Shown here: in pieces, positions 563-8,742 of the stretch
How the letters are laid out: each line of letters begins with the position of its first letter
How positions within the stretch are numbered: the stretch's first letter is position 1
From: Candidatus Atribacteria bacterium 1244-E10-H5-B2
GTDB lineage: Bacteria; Atribacterota; JS1; SB-45; 34-128
Direction: 5' to 3'
Length of the DNA: 8,742 nucleotides
NCBI GenBank assembly: GCA_003575245.1
Contig: NMQN01000105.1
Span: forward strand, 1-8,742
Notes under the pieces: generated by a model
Database searches by the model: none
What the model was told of the DNA's origin: nothing
The model's input: the letters and a program-made list of their open reading frames with translations, nothing else
Position numbers and translations under genes: made by a program

Positions 563-1753
563 CTATACAATTATGCCATAAATTTTACAGAAATGATTAG
601 GTCTTAAAACTGCGATATCGAATCGAGTTCTTAACCTAATTTGTACTTCACATTTAGCAAAGGTATCGGTCGCGCCTGATTTAGCGATCTCTATTCCAAT
701 CGATTTTCTTATAGCATATAGAATCTGTTTATAATCTCCAACGAAAGCCTTGCTTGCCGCCGAGCTTGTACCCTGCGTATCGGTAATTCCTACCTGGTTA
801 GTTACAAACTTTTTAAGATTCTGATAGGATTCTGGCCCTACTAGCGGATCGTTAGTCGTTCCCTGTTTCAACCGGTCAATTGTGAAGTAAGTTCTCGGGG
901 CCATTATCACCGCGTTAGGCACGCCGTTATTATCATAAATATCTTCAACCGCATTAGAAAAATCATCATAAGTGGTTACGGTTGCGCCATTGGTACCCTT
1001 ATTTATAGTTTCCACGTCAGTTAGTACGTCAAGCCCTGAAGGCTCGTTAGTACCGCTTCCGTAGAGGGCTACCCTGTCCATTTCCAGAGCGATTGCCGCC
1101 GACATTGAAGCCTCTAACATCGAGCTAGCATTTTTAGCATCTTCGAGCAATTCTATGCTCGATTTTACGAGGCAACCGCAAGTCATAGCCTTCAGGTTCA
1201 GAGGCTCAAGTTGCCAGTCTGATACTGTAATTGCCGCGTGTTCTGCTCTAAAATGTGCAGTCGGATCGGAAACTAATTTAACCAATCTCATCTCAGGAGT
1301 AGGCATAGGCATTGTAGTTGCTCCGGCCTGCATTACACAAGATTTATTCCTGGCCAAATCTACCAGTCTTGAGCTTATGGTCTCAGGAACGAGCCAACCC
1401 CCCAGAGCGCCAACGCCTTCGCCTGCCGCTTTAGTTTCGTAGCTATTAAGGTCGGTAAAATCACCTAAAATTTTAGCCCGAACGATTTTCCCAATAGAAA
1501 AATCTTCTTCACCAGTATAAAGTCTTTCCTTTGAAGATATCGCTTTGTGAATCTTGCCCTCAGCATCCTCAAAAGATAGGCTCCCTTTGTAATCATCATC
1601 TCCAGCTGAAACGCCAAGCATTTTATTCGGTTTCACCTGGTTCAGCTTCTCAAACATCGCGTCTTGATAAGGCTTTATCTCTTTTTCGACTTTTGCTTTG
1701 ACTTTAGCCTCGACCGTTTCGCCAATAAGCTCTTTTATTCTATCAACATCCAT
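563..1753 (-). CDS. HK97-fold major capsid protein
   Basis: This encodes the shell protein of an icosahedral phage-type capsid (396 aa). Features match the phage HK97 gp5-like family: a charged, helical N-terminal segment (about residues 1-100), a flexible KAAGEGVGALGG stretch near residue 110, then GGWLVPETISSRL (118-130), LEMDRVALYGSG (223-234), VIMAPRTYFTIDRL and FVGDYKQILYAIR, and a C-terminal LRTRFDIAVLRPNHF. In HK97 the N-terminal delta domain is removed by a prohead protease near such a linker, but no protease gene is visible here. A GTG at 1762 is in frame, but it forms part of the ribosome binding site (AGTAGGTG), so the ATG at 1753 is preferred. The only other apparent virion gene lies 49 bp downstream. 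A 94-bp piece of this gene (1396-1489) is copied at the window start. Confidence 0.93.
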   Translation of the reverse strand: MDVDRIKELIGETVEAKVKAKVEKEIKPYQDAMFEKLNQVKPNKMLGVSAGDDDYKGSLSFEDAEGKIHKAISSKERLYTGEEDFSIGKIVRAKILGDFTDLNSYETKAAGEGVGALGGWLVPETISSRLVDLARNKSCVMQAGATTMPMPTPEMRLVKLVSDPTAHFRAEHAAITVSDWQLEPLNLKAMTCGCLVKSSIELLEDAKNASSMLEASMSAAIALEMDRVALYGSGTNEPSGLDVLTDVETINKGTNGATVTTYDDFSNAVEDIYDNNGVPNAVIMAPRTYFTIDRLKQGTTNDPLVGPESYQNLKKFVTNQVGITDTQGTSSAASKAFVGDYKQILYAIRKSIGIEIAKSGATDTFAKCEVQIRLRTRFDIAVLRPNHFCKIYGIIV

Positions 1754-1762
1754 ATAATTCAC

Positions 1763-2102: not shown

Positions 2103-2570
2103 TTATTTTACTTTTTCGAATTCTTTTTTGAGCTTGGTTTCCCGGTACCTTAATTTTTTAACAATCTTCTCCGGCAAGACTTTTTCTAATTCTTTATTTT
2201 TTTCCTCCACTTTTTTTATGTTTACCTTAAATTTTTCTTTTTCTTTTTCTATCAAAAATTCTGTAACTATTTTTTGCATTAAAGGTATAGCTTTTTCGGT
2301 CCACTCTGAAAATTTAAGTCCTACCGCCTTATCAATCATTTTTATCATTTCATCGTCGGGCATACTCCTAATCCCTTTGCAAAGCAGAAAATCGTTTAAA
2401 GATTTTTCCCTAATAAACCACTTTCTACCCACTTTTACCGCAGGAATTTTCCCATCCCGGAGATATACTCTTGCACTATATTCGGTTATAGCTAGCACCT
2501 TCGCCAGGTCCGAAACATTGTAAAACCGGATCCCCTTCATTACTTTTTTTGGTACTATTTTCTCAGCCAT
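2103..2570 (-). CDS. Excisionase-type (MerR-like) HTH protein with a basic coiled-coil tail
   Basis: The 155-aa product begins with a MerR/excisionase-type DNA-binding domain (HTH_17 type, residues 16-62). The segment FYNVSDLAKVLAITEYSARVY forms the helix-turn-helix, followed by the typical wing IPAVKVGRKWFIREKSLNDFL. Residues 70-155 are helical and very rich in Lys and Glu, probably a coiled coil for oligomerisation, which is longer than in a minimal Xis. It follows the integrase gene on the same strand, so a role in excision or in controlling integration is likely; a plasmid-type regulator or partition adaptor is an alternative. GTG 2573 and ATG 2570 are adjacent; ATG is preferred because it sits seven bases after the GGGGGG of the binding site. 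A copy of the two-hairpin RNA element (2634-2715) lies upstream. Confidence 0.75.
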   Translation of the reverse strand: MAEKIVPKKVMKGIRFYNVSDLAKVLAITEYSARVYLRDGKIPAVKVGRKWFIREKSLNDFLLCKGIRSMPDDEMIKMIDKAVGLKFSEWTEKAIPLMQKIVTEFLIEKEKEKFKVNIKKVEEKNKELEKVLPEKIVKKLRYRETKLKKEFEKVK

Positions 2571-2616
2571 CACTTAACCCCCCTCTCTCTTTAAACATAC
2601 CTTAACATACTATATC

Positions 2617-2633: not shown

Positions 2634-2715
2634 CCCTGCTCCCCGGGAAAATAAACAAAAACCAGAGAGCAGGGCCCGACAACCCGGGTAATCTGGAAAA
2701 AAAACCGGACCGCCG
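2634..2715 (-). ncRNA. Two-hairpin RNA element, copy 1 (upstream of the HTH gene)
   Basis: On the minus strand the first hairpin pairs 2715-2705 with 2687-2677 (11 bp, four G-U pairs, 17-nt loop). The second pairs 2674-2662 with 2646-2634 (13 bp, two G-U pairs, 15-nt loop). Two bases separate them. There are no mismatches on the minus strand; on the plus strand each of the six G-U pairs would be an A-C mismatch. This copy lies farther from its gene (64 bp) than the others. Confidence 0.8.
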
Positions 2716-2720
2716 GGATT

Positions 2721-2885: not shown

Positions 2886-3464
2886 TTAAATTCCGAATCC
2901 ATTAATAACTTCTTTATTTTCGTCGTCATCGATGCCAATGTACCGGAAAGTTACTCCAATATTCCGGTGATTCAGTAAGCTAGAGATTCTTTCGATACTG
3001 ATTCCCTGCATTCTCAAGTGGTAGCCAAAGGTTTTTCGTAAGGTATGGCCCCCAACTTTATGCCGGATTCCGACGGTCCGGCACCACTCATTAATTAATT
3101 GGTAAGCTCTGACCCTGGTAATAGGTTTATTCTTTTTTGACTTCTCATTAGTGAATAGGTATTGGTCCAGGTTAAATATTCCGGTCTTTTTTAAGTAATG
3201 ATTTAAGGCCTCTTTAATCTGACTGTTAAAATGCACCTTCCGGGTCTTTCCGGTCTTTTGCTCTTTGATAGTCAAATAGTCTCTTAGATTGCCCTGGCCA
3301 TTTTTAACATCTGCAAGTTTCAGAGATAAGAGATCCCCTATCCTTAGGCCGGAGTTAATACCAAAAACGAATAATAAAAAATCTCTCGGGCTCTCCTGTC
3401 GGTATAGATTCCCCCTAATCTGTATAATTTGATTGGCTGATCTGATTGGCTCTACAATATTCAT
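2886..3464 (-). CDS. int: Tyrosine recombinase (phage-type integrase), catalytic domain only
   Basis: This would cut and rejoin DNA at attachment sites to integrate or excise the element, or resolve multimers. All catalytic positions of the family are present: R41 (in GLRIGDLL), a Lys near 70 (QKTGKTRKV), H140-x-x-R143 (HTLRKTF), H166 (LLNHRN) and Tyr175 (RYIGI). At 192 aa it lacks the arm-binding domain and most of the core-binding domain of full-length integrases of about 350 aa. Similar catalytic-domain-only recombinases occur in low-GC bacteria and their phages. The start ATG 3464 follows AGGGGG. A good promoter lies at 3506-3534. The HTH gene downstream is a candidate directionality factor. 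Confidence 0.92.
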   Translation of the reverse strand: MNIVEPIRSANQIIQIRGNLYRQESPRDFLLFVFGINSGLRIGDLLSLKLADVKNGQGNLRDYLTIKEQKTGKTRKVHFNSQIKEALNHYLKKTGIFNLDQYLFTNEKSKKNKPITRVRAYQLINEWCRTVGIRHKVGGHTLRKTFGYHLRMQGISIERISSLLNHRNIGVTFRYIGIDDDENKEVINGFGI

Positions 3465-4543: not shown

Positions 4544-4635
4544 GGTGACATTTTGTCACCTACCCCAGGTGACATTTTGTCACCGTACTTTTTTTAGAAA
4601 ATATTGAGGGAGTAAAGGGGTGACCTTTTGTCACC
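4544..4635. repeat. Three copies of a 17-bp dyad (GGTGACATTTTGTCACC): iterons or operators
   Basis: Copies are at 4544-4560, 4568-4584 and 4619-4635; the third has C instead of A at position 7. Each has arms GGTGAC/GTCACC, and starts are 24 and 51 bp apart, roughly multiples of 25. They lie 24 bp after the replication-type gene and about 200 bp before the 53-aa gene. This suits binding sites for a dimeric protein: origin iterons for the neighbouring winged-helix protein, or operators of the next unit. Confidence 0.8.
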
Positions 4636-4656
4636 CTTTTACTCCCTCTTTTTTTT
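4606..4656 (+). terminator. Intrinsic terminator (plus strand), possibly two-way
   Basis: A 19-pair stem (4606-4624 with 4630-4648) with loop CTTTT contains the third dyad and is followed on the plus strand by eight Ts (4649-4656). The single imperfect pair is G-T on the plus strand but C-A on the minus strand, so the plus transcript folds better. For the minus-strand gene ending at 4660 the following sequence AATATTTTC is only partly T-rich, so it may work both ways. Confidence 0.6.
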
Positions 4657-4659
4657 AAG

Positions 4660-5115
4660 TCATAAAAAAGGATTAGGCCCGGCAATACCTTCTTTGGTAA
4701 TTTTTCCTTCTTCTAATAATTTTTCTCTTGCTGTGTCCCACCTCAAAACTACAATAGTTCTGTCTTTCTTTCTTCTATCCCACCGGTTAGGCTTAAAATA
4801 TCTTTTAATTAAGTGCCAATATTCCAATTCATTCAGGAAGGATTTTTTTTTCTTTCCAATCCAATCTTCTGATATTCCGGAGAGTTTGCTTAATTTCGGA
4901 TTCCTGACATAAGTGGTTTGTCTTTTATTAGTGCAATATAAAATTATATCGTATAATTTTACCGCACGAGGCCTTAATTGAGAGGTTATATTTGCGTGAA
5001 AAAACCCAAATTTGATTCGTTTATGCTGTTCCCATAATTCCGGATATTCCGTAGAATCTAATCTTGAATTTTTGTCTAAAAAATGCTCTTGGTCCCAATA
5101 TTCTTTTTTCTTCAT
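4660..5115 (-). CDS. Winged-helix protein, probable replication initiator
   Basis: The 151-aa product has a central winged-helix region at about residues 45-108: LRPRAVKLYDIILYC, then LSKLSGISEDWIGKKKKSFL as the recognition part and ELEYWHLIKRYF as the wing. This layout resembles the N-terminal domain of phage and plasmid replication initiators and related HTH_36-type regulators. No nuclease, helicase or ATP-binding motif is seen, so it would bind the origin and recruit host enzymes. Context supports this: three dyads just downstream, a dyad over its promoter, and a leader that can hide its ribosome binding site (GAAAGGG) in a pseudoknot, as expected for copy control. The start is ATG 5115. 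A transcription regulator is the main alternative. Confidence 0.6.
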   Translation of the reverse strand: MKKKEYWDQEHFLDKNSRLDSTEYPELWEQHKRIKFGFFHANITSQLRPRAVKLYDIILYCTNKRQTTYVRNPKLSKLSGISEDWIGKKKKSFLNELEYWHLIKRYFKPNRWDRRKKDRTIVVLRWDTAREKLLEEGKITKEGIAGPNPFL

Positions 5116-6880: not shown

Positions 6881-7516
6881 CTATTCGATAAGTTTTCCTA
6901 AAATTTTCTGTAATTGTGATTTGTGTACCCTGATCCCTAGCTGACAAAATCCGTCGGTACTGATTTCTAGATCTATCTTTGTTTTCGTAGGAATAACAAA
7001 CCCCGGCAATATCTTCTCCGGTTTTCCGACTGAAACTTTAGAGAGTCCTGGCTGTTTCAGTACCCGGTTAAAGGCCTTTTTGATTAGCTCGAAAACATTA
7101 TCTAGGAGGATTGCTTTTTTTATCAAATCCTGCTCTCGGATAGTAACTTCAATCCAAGTTTGCCTACTGATCGGCTCATAGTCCCGAACCCAACTTGCCG
7201 GCTCCACTAGCTCTGAATAGCGTAATTTTAGATAGATCTTTAAAGCCTCTGAAGTACTCTTCATTTTGCAAAACATCAGATTAGAGTAACTGTACCGGGT
7301 ATAGGTTTCCAAATAATTAACTTTTACCCCCTGTTTAATTTCGGTAAGCAAAAAATTATTTATCTCTTTAAATAGATCCTTTTCCCACTCCGGTCTATTC
7401 CTCAAAAAAGTTTCTTCATTAAAGGTTTTCATTATATTAAATCCCCTTTCGATTTTTTCTTTTCTCTCTTCTAAAAATTGCGACTTAAAATCATAATCAA
7501 CGACTTCTTTTTCCAC
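6881..7516 (-). CDS. DUF5655-like protein, 211 aa
   Basis: Residues about 60-155 resemble the DUF5655 domain. Visible are a YLETYTRYSY segment, ALKIYLKLRYSELVEPASWVRD, then WIEVTIREQDL and FELIKKAFNRV, the last being the domain's usual end. DUF5655 often accompanies nucleases or restriction genes, but its activity is unknown, and no catalytic motif is seen here. The remaining C-terminus (IDLEISTDGFCQLGIRVHKSQL) may be a second small domain. Two starts are possible: GTG 7516 with AAAGGGGG, right after RNA element copy 2, or ATG 7432 (residue 29) with AAAGGGG ten bases upstream. The first 28 residues are highly charged. Confidence 0.75.
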   Translation of the reverse strand: MEKEVVDYDFKSQFLEERKEKIERGFNIMKTFNEETFLRNRPEWEKDLFKEINNFLLTEIKQGVKVNYLETYTRYSYSNLMFCKMKSTSEALKIYLKLRYSELVEPASWVRDYEPISRQTWIEVTIREQDLIKKAILLDNVFELIKKAFNRVLKQPGLSKVSVGKPEKILPGFVIPTKTKIDLEISTDGFCQLGIRVHKSQLQKILGKLIE

Positions 7517-7536
7517 AGAAATACCCCCTTTAAATA

Positions 7537-7618
7537 TCCCCTATCCCCCAGACGAAATTTACTAAAAGACCGGGGGACAGGGGACCGGCAGTCCGGGGAA
7601 TTGGAAACCGGACCACCG
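7537..7618 (-). ncRNA. Two-hairpin RNA element, copy 2 (upstream of the 211-aa gene)
   Basis: On the minus strand the first hairpin pairs 7618-7608 with 7596-7586 (11 bp, two G-U pairs) and the second pairs 7584-7570 with 7551-7537 (15 bp, two G-U pairs). The second stem has a different sequence from the other copies (UCCCCUGUCCCCC instead of CCCUGCUC) but keeps full pairing. It starts seven bases after the 29-aa gene stop and ends just before the AAAGGGGG site of the next gene. Confidence 0.85.
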
Positions 7619-7625
7619 AATCAAT

Positions 7626-7715
7626 TCACTTATTCCCTTTTTTCTTTTCTTTTTTAATGCTATATGCAATTATCCCAAAAACTATTAAAACCATAACGAT
7701 AAAATACCATTCCAT
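7626..7715 (-). CDS. Small single-span membrane protein, 29 aa
   Basis: The product MEWYFIVMVLIVFGIIAYSI is one membrane helix, followed by a strongly positive tail KKEKKKGNK, so the tail should stay in the cytoplasm. The gene has a strong site (AAAAAGGAGGG) before ATG 7715 and sits exactly between RNA element copies 3 and 2. Its plan resembles the 36-aa gene upstream, so the two may share an origin or act together. A role in lysis, membrane attachment or exclusion is possible; nothing identifies it. Confidence 0.75.
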   Translation of the reverse strand: MEWYFIVMVLIVFGIIAYSIKKEKKKGNK

Positions 7716-7738
7716 TATTAACCCTCCTTTTTAAATAT

Positions 7739-7826
7739 CCCTGCTCCCTGAAAAAGCACCGACTCTAAAACAGAGAGCAGGGGATCGATGATCCGGAGAA
7801 CCCTAGCCAGAAAAACCGAATCACCG
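7739..7826 (-). ncRNA. Two-hairpin RNA element, copy 3 (upstream of the 29-aa gene)
   Basis: On the minus strand the first hairpin pairs 7826-7816 with 7796-7786 (11 bp, two G-U pairs, 19-nt loop) and the second pairs 7782-7771 with 7750-7739 (12 bp, one G-U pair). Compared with copy 4, pairs 4 and 6 of the first stem change from C-G to U-A and from G-C to A-U, so both partners change together. It starts seven bases after the 36-aa gene stop. Confidence 0.85.
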
Positions 7827-7833
7827 AGTTATT

Positions 7834-7944
7834 TTAAAGCCTTTTCTTTGCAATATCTTCTTTTAATTCTTTGCCCGACTGGTAAGATATTAGTCCCATC
7901 GCTAGAAAAACAACTATCGGAATCGAAATCAAACACCACCACAT
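7834..7944 (-). CDS. Small single-span membrane protein, 36 aa
   Basis: The product begins MWWCLISIPIVVFLAMGLIS, one hydrophobic helix, and ends YQSGKELKEDIAKKRL, a charged cytoplasmic tail. ATG 7944 follows an ideal GAAAGGAGG. It starts 22 bp after the 43-aa gene stop, without an RNA element between them, and is followed by RNA element copy 3. I recognise no family; the small size and position next to virion genes are common for phage membrane proteins such as lysis accessories. Confidence 0.75.
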   Translation of the reverse strand: MWWCLISIPIVVFLAMGLISYQSGKELKEDIAKKRL

Positions 7945-7966
7945 AATTTTAACCTCCTTTCATTTA

Positions 7967-8098
7967 TTATTTAGTATTATTGTTTCTTTTTATTTTCGGC
8001 TTTTTAAATACTCCGATATTTTTAGATTTGAATTTGAAGAAGTCCTTAGTCGGTGTTATAGTTCCCGAAGGCTCGATTGTTTTCTTTTTCTTTTTCAT
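7967..8098 (-). CDS. Very basic small protein, 43 aa
   Basis: The product starts MKKKKKTIEPSGTITPTKDF and ends FKKPKIKRNNNTK; more than a third of its residues are Lys or Arg and there are almost no acidic ones. It is probably unfolded alone. ATG 8098 follows AAAGGGGG. It is the first gene after the capsid-accessory gene and is preceded by RNA element copy 4. A role in binding or condensing DNA, perhaps inside the capsid, or in binding the RNA elements, fits the charge but is only inference. Confidence 0.7.
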   Translation of the reverse strand: MKKKKKTIEPSGTITPTKDFFKFKSKNIGVFKKPKIKRNNNTK

Positions 8099-8122
8099 TT
8101 TTTACCCCCTTTCTTAGAGATT

Positions 8123-8206
8123 CCCTGCTCCCCGGGGAAATGATTACAAAAGCCGAAGAGCAGGGCCCGGCAGTCCGGTTCTGTCCTTAGTCCGGCCGGA
8201 CCGCCG
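8123..8206 (-). ncRNA. Two-hairpin RNA element, copy 4 (upstream of the 43-aa gene)
   Basis: On the minus strand the first hairpin pairs 8206-8196 with 8178-8168 (11 bp, one G-U pair, 17-nt loop) and the second pairs 8165-8153 with 8135-8123 (13 bp, two G-U pairs). The second stem ends 11 bases before the AAAGGGGG site of the 43-aa gene. This copy is closest to copy 1 in the second hairpin. Confidence 0.85.
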
Positions 8207-8221
8207 AATTATTCGAAATAT

Positions 8222-8280
8222 TTGATTTTTTTCTTTAATTCCTCTATAATAAAAAAGATCGATTAGGAATTTCCAAATCG
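8222..8280. promoter_or_regulatory. Overlapping opposite promoters with a 21-bp operator-like dyad
   Basis: On the plus strand TTGATT (8222-8227) and a perfect TATAAT (8245-8250) are 17 bp apart. On the minus strand TTGGAA (8276-8271) and TATTAT (8251-8246), 19 bp apart, could start the small-gene operon. A 21-bp dyad (8260-8280, nine of ten pairs, outer arms CGATT/AATCG, inner GGAA/TTCC) overlaps both start regions and looks like a repressor site. Confidence 0.45.
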
Positions 8281-8290
8281 GTAATATCGC

Positions 8291-8334
8291 AATAAAAATG
8301 GCTCATTTCTTCGCGGAGGCGGGTCATTTTTATT
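8291..8334. terminator. Inverted repeat after the capsid-accessory gene, possible terminator
   Basis: AATAAAAATG (8291-8300) pairs with CATTTTTATT (8325-8334) around a 24-nt loop, starting three bases after the stop codon at 8338. The arms themselves are T-rich in both directions. The weak, AT-only stem makes this a tentative two-way terminator; from the plus-strand promoter at 8222 it would bound a short antisense RNA of about 80 nt. Confidence 0.4.
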
Positions 8335-8337
8335 TTA

Positions 8338-8742
8338 TCATATCGCTGCAGGATATTGTCCTCCAACTTTCTCGTCGATTGCTCCCTTCTTCTTTCCTCT
8401 GATCAGTACAGCTGAGCAAATCCCGGTGTTACTTGTGGTCGTTACCTTCGTTGCAATAAACGGCAAACCGGTTGTTAATTCCTCCCCGCCAAACCAAACA
8501 TAACTATTCGCTTTTGTCGTTGCGAAAGTGGTAAAACTGCCAGTCTCGGCAATACTATCTAAATAATAGCCATCTTTTGCTTCTATGGTTAAAACTCCTG
8601 CACTTTCACTTGCAAAAGCTTTTTCAGTATCAAAGCCAACAGTAGCGTCGTTTATACAAGCTAATATTCCTACTCCGTCAGCTTCATCATCACCAGTAGA
8701 AGACCATTCACCACCAGAAGAAGCCGCACCAGCCGCCCCTGA
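8338..8742 (-). CDS. Probable capsid accessory/decoration protein, 3' part (starts at 513)
   Basis: This open frame enters from the window end and stops at TGA 8340-8338. Its first 30 residues repeat those encoded at 92-182 (such as SSGGEWSSTGDDEADGVGIL), then it continues ACINDATVGFDTEKAF and ends VGGQYPAAI. Joined with the 5' part the reading frame is continuous: 331 plus 404 bases make 245 codons including the stop. The C-terminal half is again beta-rich (GVLTIEAKDGYYL, NSYVWFGGEEL, FIATKVTTTS). This is the authentic C-terminus, in contrast to the chimeric end near base 70. Confidence 0.7.
   Translation of the reverse strand, partial: SGAAGAASSGGEWSSTGDDEADGVGILACINDATVGFDTEKAFASESAGVLTIEAKDGYYLDSIAETGSFTTFATTKANSYVWFGGEELTTGLPFIATKVTTTSNTGICSAVLIRGKKKGAIDEKVGGQYPAAI

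Follow-up and report, generated by a model that had tools for sequence, protein, structure and literature searches.

The phage-type contig and its genes

The stretch of DNA analysed here, referred to as the window, comprises the 8,742 nucleotides of contig NMQN01000105.1, from the assembly of Candidatus Atribacteria bacterium 1244-E10-H5-B2. It is an AT-rich contig of phage type, in which the recognised genes are located on the minus strand. Four copies of a double hairpin, named c1 to c4, lie among these genes and are the subject of this work. The features are listed below; bit scores refer to the covariance model R1, described further on.

563..1762, minus strand: major capsid gene (Pfam Phage_capsid, E 6.6e-28), which marks the contig as phage
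2103..2573, minus strand: HTH_17 (excisionase-like) gene, downstream of c1 (Pfam HTH_17, E 1.6e-10; PHROG DNA-binding/excisionase matches)
2634..2717, minus strand: double-hairpin copy c1, with stem-loop 1 at 2675-2717 and stem-loop 2 at 2634-2674 (fold z -4.31; 92 bits, c1 being in the training set of the model)
2886..3464, minus strand: tyrosine integrase gene, upstream of c1 (Pfam Phage_integrase, E 1.8e-24)
6881..7516, minus strand: 211-aa gene, downstream of c2 (open reading frame)
7536..7619, minus strand: double-hairpin copy c2, directly upstream of the 211-aa gene (fold z -6.77; 54.9 bits, E 1.2e-11, outside the training set)
7626..7715, minus strand: gene of a 29-aa hydrophobic peptide, between c3 and c2
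7739..7827, minus strand: double-hairpin copy c3, directly upstream of the 29-aa gene (fold z -6.06; 76.7 bits, in the training set)
7834..7944, minus strand: 36-aa gene with its stop just before c3 (open reading frame; an overlapping 37-aa frame at 7829-7942 is the alternative)
7967..8098, minus strand: 43-aa basic gene, downstream of c4 (open reading frame)
8123..8208, minus strand: double-hairpin copy c4, directly upstream of the 43-aa gene (fold z -4.30; 82.9 bits, in the training set)

The window closes on itself, since positions 92-182 and 8651-8741 are exactly the same, which would give a circle of 8,559 bp. Its first 91 or so bases look like an assembly join, and positions 1-94 repeat 1396-1489. 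This circle carries a capsid and an integrase gene and no recognised terminase. The capsid has a relative of 60% identity in the viral record L003, which also carries the double hairpin, and relatives of the integrase with 83-88% identity were found in 13 of 27 viral loci. The 211-aa protein gave no Pfam or PHROG match and has one relative, in record G010. Compared with known phages, the DNA of the window gave no match, the capsid showed identities of at most 24% among the matches listed (8 of 11 records), and the 211-aa and capsid proteins, used as queries, turned up no related phage.

Two further sites were noted in the window. Between 4544 and 4656, beside a gene at 4660-5115, there are three dyads of the GGTGACA/TGTCACC type and, on the plus strand, a 19-bp hairpin with T8 after it; these are possible operators and a possible plus-strand terminator. 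The palindrome GACATATGTC at 2617-2626 closely follows c1, precedes the HTH gene and is a possible operator of that gene.

One fold in four places

A first-pass annotation, made from the letters of the window, had described the four copies as sharing one minus-strand RNA fold, and RNA folding gave two adjacent hairpins in all four. On this strand none of 200 shuffles of any copy was as stable, with folding energies of -43 to -53 kcal/mol compared with -26 to -40 for the same dyads read on the plus strand; the plus-strand folds still beat most of their shuffles (z -3.0 to -3.7). When G-U pairs are allowed, the stems measure 12+16 bp in the copy at 7537 (c2), 13+13 in those at 2634 and 8123 (c1 and c4) and 12+12 in that at 7739 (c3). 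The lengths given at first, 11 bp and 12-15 bp, were thus right or slightly short of the 12-13 and 12-16 measured in this way. The count of 16 G-U pairs proved exact (6+3+3+4), with no A-C pair, and one position that fails to pair, topmost in stem 2 of c3, arises only when all copies are forced into one frame of 24 pairs. The variation in stem 1 agrees with the covariation first reported there, pair 4 being C-G, U-G or U-A and pair 6 being G-U, G-C or A-U. A strict two-hairpin descriptor found the four copies on the minus strand, nothing on the plus strand and nothing in 200 dinucleotide shuffles of the window.

The placement before genes also held. Copies c2, c3 and c4 end 19, 23 and 24 nt, respectively, before a start codon, with a motif resembling a Shine-Dalgarno (SD) sequence in between, while c1 ends 60 nt before the start of the HTH gene. 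The stop codon of the 29-aa gene lies 6 nt before c2, and short genes resembling this one precede the element in L002 and L199 and occur without it in L102.

Relatives in environmental viruses

A sequence pattern derived from the four window copies was run on IMG/VR and matched six stretches, all of which carry the element. In five of these copies the second stem pairs perfectly over 11-14 bp; the remaining one, L001, contains an internal tandem duplication of 37 nt with the two hairpins on either side. The model R1 was built from six copies and run on whole virus records, where it matched 8 of 30 and 3 of 22; because G022 is in both lists, this amounts to 11 of 51 distinct records, a fraction in which six of the eleven positives had been preselected by the pattern and the 51 include distant relatives and fragments. 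As only these 11 of 51 match, the element is not essential. The new full copies obtained in this way are those of L112 (the same copy being present in L113), L199, L203 and L225. Ten further full copies, one with the internal duplication, are therefore known from ten IMG/VR contigs, which brings the total to 14 full copies in 11 genomes: the four of the window, L001 to L006 and the R1 finds, with L112/L113 counted once. A partial copy in L001, at 8283-8334, comes in addition.

The strict descriptor, applied to 493 kb in 37 loci, gave 11 matches, all of them family members, and it is an incomplete finder because L001 and L112/L113 were missed. A looser pattern retrieved 64 stretches, 56 of them not already known, among which the model gave 17 matches at E <=0.1, the best being L149 (32 bits, E 9.6e-6, 73% GC); as these come from stretches preselected by a pattern, they were excluded from the membership count. 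In a collection of 84,980 cellular species, nearly the same pattern, with a spacer of up to 4 instead of 3, matched 90 stretches; within the 50 nt examined in each, perfect pairing in the second stem never exceeded 9 bp. Among the matches listed (45 of 96, ordered by stem length), genome GC content was 58-77%, against 31-38% for the viral ones. Other forms of the element may occur in cells, since the pattern misses L112, L199, L203 and L225.

Rfam 15, searched with the window up to E 1, returned only four sub-threshold matches to microRNA models, all within 4586-4671 and none at the element, and ten relatives gave no match at the gathering threshold. In the literature searched, no published description of such a double hairpin was found by title or abstract. 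From its sequences, the double hairpin is a new RNA family from environmental viruses, supported by covariation and without an Rfam 15 match at the thresholds used.

Evidence for selection on RNA

The alignment of 13 copies to the model comprises 24 pairs and 311 pair cells, of which 96.5% are standard pairs, compared with a mean of 90.9 for shuffled alignments (0 of 500 as high); these counts are biased by an alignment fitted to the structure, and cells of related copies are non-independent. When the 3' partners were slid by 1-3 columns, pairing fell to 32-54%. The covariation seen in the window was upheld once homologues were added: 22 cells have changed on both sides, whereas shuffles give a mean of 7.1 and none of 500 reached that number. 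Such two-sided change concerns 8 of the 24 pairs (5 of 500 shuffles as high), seven in stem 2 and one in stem 1, where six further pairs vary on one side. A measure of further pair types was not clearly above the shuffles, 40 of 500 being as high.

Across the 13 copies, 43 cells are G-U, two are A-C and nine are other mismatches. The sense strand has more A than T in all ten loci measured, and composition alone would favour A-C over G-U; a binomial value for this comparison is nevertheless overstated, because the cells of related copies are non-independent. Taken with the covariation and with the sense orientation of all 14 copies, the excess of G-U over A-C supports the claim that selection acts on RNA rather than on DNA dyads. 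The stem sequence is itself partly conserved, with CCGG ends and a CCCTG/CAGGG foot. This is more than a mere insulator would need and hints at specific recognition or at recent ancestry.

Position of the element between genes

All 14 copies are intergenic and in sense with the genes, as judged from lists of open reading frames without a gene caller. Copies upstream of genes in related elements, which were predicted from the window, are indeed found among the homologues, with a fold that covaries. Sense orientation, a covarying fold and a seat upstream of genes place the element among the cis-acting structured RNA leaders in the broad sense, and the earlier reading of an RNA-level leader family is supported at the sequence level.

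In 11 of the 14 copies, a stop codon lies no more than 33 nt upstream of the element, the exceptions being c1 (168 nt), L001 (82 nt) and c4 (about 130 nt, with the stop at 8338). On the other side, 12 copies have an SD-like motif no more than about 16 nt away and a start codon within reach; these motifs and the short genes were judged by eye, and L112 was taken from coordinates. The exceptions are c1 and L003, the latter having no SD-supported frame for about 290 nt. In five of the 14 (L001, L112, L119, L199 and L203) the nearby start belongs to a mini-ORF only, and a long gene follows 129-152 nt further. A position wedged between stop codon and SD is therefore a poor fit for c1, c4, L001 and L003.

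The genes that follow are of several kinds. Replication genes are located downstream in L112 and L203 (Pfam Phage_rep_O) and in L001 (PHROG DnaD-like), and, by similarity to the L203 gene, in L199 and, two genes later, in L119. The large terminase gene, TerL, follows after a small gene in L003, L004 and L225.

With this proximity in mind, the element could be a DNA site for packaging, replication or recombination, such as a cos or pac site, an origin or an attC-like site; it lies close to TerL in three genomes and precedes replication genes in five. We consider this very improbable, given the presence of four copies in one genome, the strand bias of the G-U pairs, the sense-only orientation and the absence of the element from L263 and L264, whose TerL proteins are 69-70% identical to that of L225.

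The same neighbourhoods are ones in which phages use antitermination, which brings in the put RNA of phage HK022, of about 70 nt and consisting of two stem-loops downstream of the early promoters (PMC9378689). According to the part of that source available, the put stems are bulged and carry a triplex, with a special fork base (PMC9378689). By this comparison, put (putL/putR) would be the nearest two-hairpin phage RNA found: both consist of two adjacent stem-loops, of 80-90 nt here, where transcription is predicted. A put-like antiterminator would bind RNA polymerase as a nascent two-hairpin RNA and carry it through the terminators of the following operon, and the element resembles it in gross design and size as well as in its place before the replication and TerL genes. 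We nevertheless regard this as rather unlikely. Unlike put as described there, the stems are unbroken in most copies, with 96.5% of the cells paired in 13 copies; the bulges, the triplex and the fork base were not found, and the linker of 1-3 nt is variable. Instead of following early promoters, many copies stand directly after stop codons within runs of genes, they come and go, and one small genome has four. Terminator-like sites in the window are also at the level of chance (8 found and 7.8 expected, two of them on the sense strand).

Other readings of the position were discarded. As a terminator, the element would be expected to have a U tract, which is missing from 3' flanks such as AUAUUUAAA, CUGAUUAAA and UUAUUAAA, and the gap separating hairpin and SD leaves a promoter little space; a terminator scanner gave one match inside c4, on a different stem. 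A third helix closing the structure between the flanks was not seen, since pairing within copies was no better than between copies (permutation p 0.55, 0.69 and 0.29 for three flank sizes). A leader peptide running through the element was rejected by eye: some copies have open frames, and the frames differ.

Gain, loss and exchange

Several pairs of related records differ by the element. In L112 a 68-aa gene is followed by the element and then by a replication gene with its leader. L110 lacks the element and is otherwise alike here in genes and leader, and in L201 the two genes are present with neither element nor leader. The element likewise follows the 68-aa gene in L119 and L203. L002 and L102 share their neighbours, a short hydrophobic gene and a gene of the 94-aa type, and L002 has in addition the element and a 178-aa endonuclease-like gene. 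With one neighbour the same, the element follows an 83-aa gene in L006 and is missing there in L101, and it precedes the small gene and TerL in L225 and is missing there in L263 and L264. Model searches of these element-free counterparts gave no match to the element.

The two hairpins have partly separate histories. Among five copies at four junctions, 37-41 of the 41 positions of hairpin 1 are identical, and hairpins 1 of L001 and L002 agree in 41 of 41 although the neighbours differ on both sides. L112 and L199 share their hairpin 2 beside unlike hairpins 1, which suits two separable modules. The same neighbours with and without the element, together with near-identical hairpins 1 at different junctions, indicate that the element spreads or is readily gained and lost. 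To judge by these sequences, the element and its halves would move between sites, or persist while the neighbours are swapped; the polarity is not established.

A mobile DNA without its own enzyme would leave similar traces. The hairpins might then be single-stranded DNA sites for a transposase, as in REP, BIME or IS200/IS605-MITE-like sequences, with the RNA irrelevant. Sequences of the REP/BIME/REPIN kind are short, GC-rich intergenic palindromes, possibly mobile, which occur at high copy number and in both orientations, have one palindrome type with a short conserved foot, and are linked to the Y1 transposase RAYT. The element is similar in being a set of short GC-rich palindromes between genes, possibly mobile, and G-T wobble pairs can form in single-stranded DNA too. 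Such an entity would naturally be present in some records and absent from others at one and the same junction, and would recur almost unchanged at different junctions; the SD-like TAAAAGG that flanks several copies on both sides could be a target duplication. We find this origin fairly improbable all the same. Left and right flanks resemble each other no more within a copy than between copies (permutation p 0.27), all 14 copies are in sense orientation, there are only 1-4 per record, the two hairpins are unlike each other and the wobble pairs are in the sense strand. No transposase, RAYT included, was recognised among the ten window proteins scanned, and the cellular collection yielded no long second stem of the viral kind in its 90 stretches.

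Endonuclease-like genes were observed at 2576-3112 in L002 and 2026-2529 in L004 (PHROG endonuclease VII/HNH matches) and, by eye, at about 6220-6520 in L263. All are located at, or close to, junctions at which the element is variably present, and these junctions are possible homing hot spots.

Phages, small circles and a possible protein partner

The element is common to circular-looking phage records of 35-37 kb and to elements of 7.6-10 kb. The small circular-looking elements related to the window, which are candidate phage satellites, are the following:

L003, 1-8057: integrase, TerL and capsid; terminal repeat of 123 bases
L004, 1-7711: integrase and TerL; terminal repeat of 77 bases
L225, 1-10191: integrase, TerL and a scaffold-like gene; terminal repeat of 127 bases
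L263, 1-10431: compared by TerL only; terminal repeat of 127 bases

The 35-37 kb records of L112, L203 and L199 have terminal repeats of 120, 119 and 127 bases, and such repeats are as expected of circular assemblies. No portal or tail gene was recognised among the scanned frames of the small circles, which, by gene content, look like satellites (7.6-10.3 kb) of a hypothetical helper. Capsid-forming PICI satellites are small integrating elements with their own capsid (PMC11389934). As carriers, the window and L003 resemble these in having integrase and capsid; they differ from PICI, within the part of that source available, in being unplaced environmental circles whose helper is hypothetical and, for the window, in having no recognised terminase.

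If satellites and helpers share the element, it might be a site at which a phage protein binds and regulates translation or late expression, which would place satellite operons under the control of the helper. The partly conserved stem sequence and the occurrence of the element in large records and small circles with common integrase and TerL families speak for such a site. In 18 records, many of them incomplete, no gene family tracks the element; the best-associated are the integrase, in 7 of 11 records with the element and 2 of 7 without, and TerL, in 6 of 11 and 2 of 7, and we judge this function distinctly unlikely. The protein partners proposed by the first-pass annotation are not supported. 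Relatives of the zinc ribbon are found both with the element (L112/L113) and without it (L104, L106 and L221/L222), and the 43-aa basic protein had no match up to E 1 in 65 other loci.

Proposed role and comparison with known systems

The arrangement of stop codon, hairpin 1, hairpin 2 and SD points to an insulator that would keep two messages apart and shield the new end of each. Our tentative preference, held at a little less than even confidence, is that the double hairpins constitute a new family of cis-acting RNAs of about 80-90 nt, exchanged by phages and small phage-like circles and insulating neighbouring cistrons. More generally, the element is probably a horizontally exchanged intercistronic RNA that affects the processing, stability or translation of the downstream message. 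Its two hairpins are GC-rich and separated by 1-3 nt, nearly all of the wobble pairs fall in the sense strand, and the element would act within a polycistronic transcript. Hairpin 1 would close off the upstream message at its 3' side; hairpin 2, directly in front of the following ribosome-binding site, would serve as a barrier on the 5' side. Insulation of the cistrons by the pair could come from cleavage by a nuclease at the junction or close to it, or from a block to exonucleases and to ribosomes reading in, and the stability and translation of the downstream gene would thereby be set separately from those of its neighbour. Spread may occur by recombination between co-infecting phages, perhaps aided by the free-standing endonuclease-like genes at some of the same junctions. 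Translation control, processing and protein binding, as initially suggested, are candidate roles only.

A further-reaching version, which we think unlikely, would make the element a portable RNA cassette of temperate phages and satellites that is seated between stop codon and ribosome-binding site and splits the message at that point, so that the upstream mRNA is capped by hairpin 1 at its 3' end and the downstream mRNA by hairpin 2 at its 5' end. Its halves would be traded separately, rewiring the stoichiometry of operons without new promoters. Were this true, the wiring of phage operons would evolve by the swapping of ready-made RNA insulators, and satellite-like elements and related phages would carry the same RNA parts. 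The natural pairs of records with and without the element between the same genes offer a direct way to test its function.

In phage T7, RNase III processing sites are intercistronic double-stranded RNA hairpins that split a polycistronic message. The insulating element proposed here would resemble them as a set of intercistronic hairpins, a likeness of description and not of sequence, with the cleavage putative. A second parallel is found in the intergenic hairpins that accompany homing endonucleases in T-even phages (seg43(25), mobE). For seg43(25) of Aeromonas phage 25, a very stable predicted hairpin lies directly upstream of the ribosome-binding site without covering it, and its effect was undetermined in that study (PMC2988022). 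The variable insertion at junctions is alike, and in L002 an endonuclease-like gene follows the element. The difference, in terms of the part of that source available, is that the T-even hairpins are single and tied to one gene, whereas a conserved and covarying double hairpin stands here before many different genes.

A second leader module

Upstream of replication-operon genes, a second conserved leader module was observed, consisting of an SD, a six-codon frame (MPLIVV-like) and a third GC-rich hairpin. It occurs both with and without the double hairpin, at the following places:

L112, about 7927-8046
L110, 7071-7185
L001, about 4728-4845 and 8171-8282
L006, 1019-1122
L111, 7040-7158
L203, about 2037-2140

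One of the L001 copies has its hairpin part inverted, and one is joined to a truncated double hairpin, which forms the end of a 133-aa frame. Between the two copies, L001 5043-8006 holds an antiporter gene, which we take to be NhaC-like, and a saccharopine dehydrogenase gene; this stretch is either host-like cargo or an assembly join. Among the best 120 of 2734 matches, the saccharopine dehydrogenase is 83-86% identical only to metagenome proteins and 60% identical to a protein of a Synergistales MAG.
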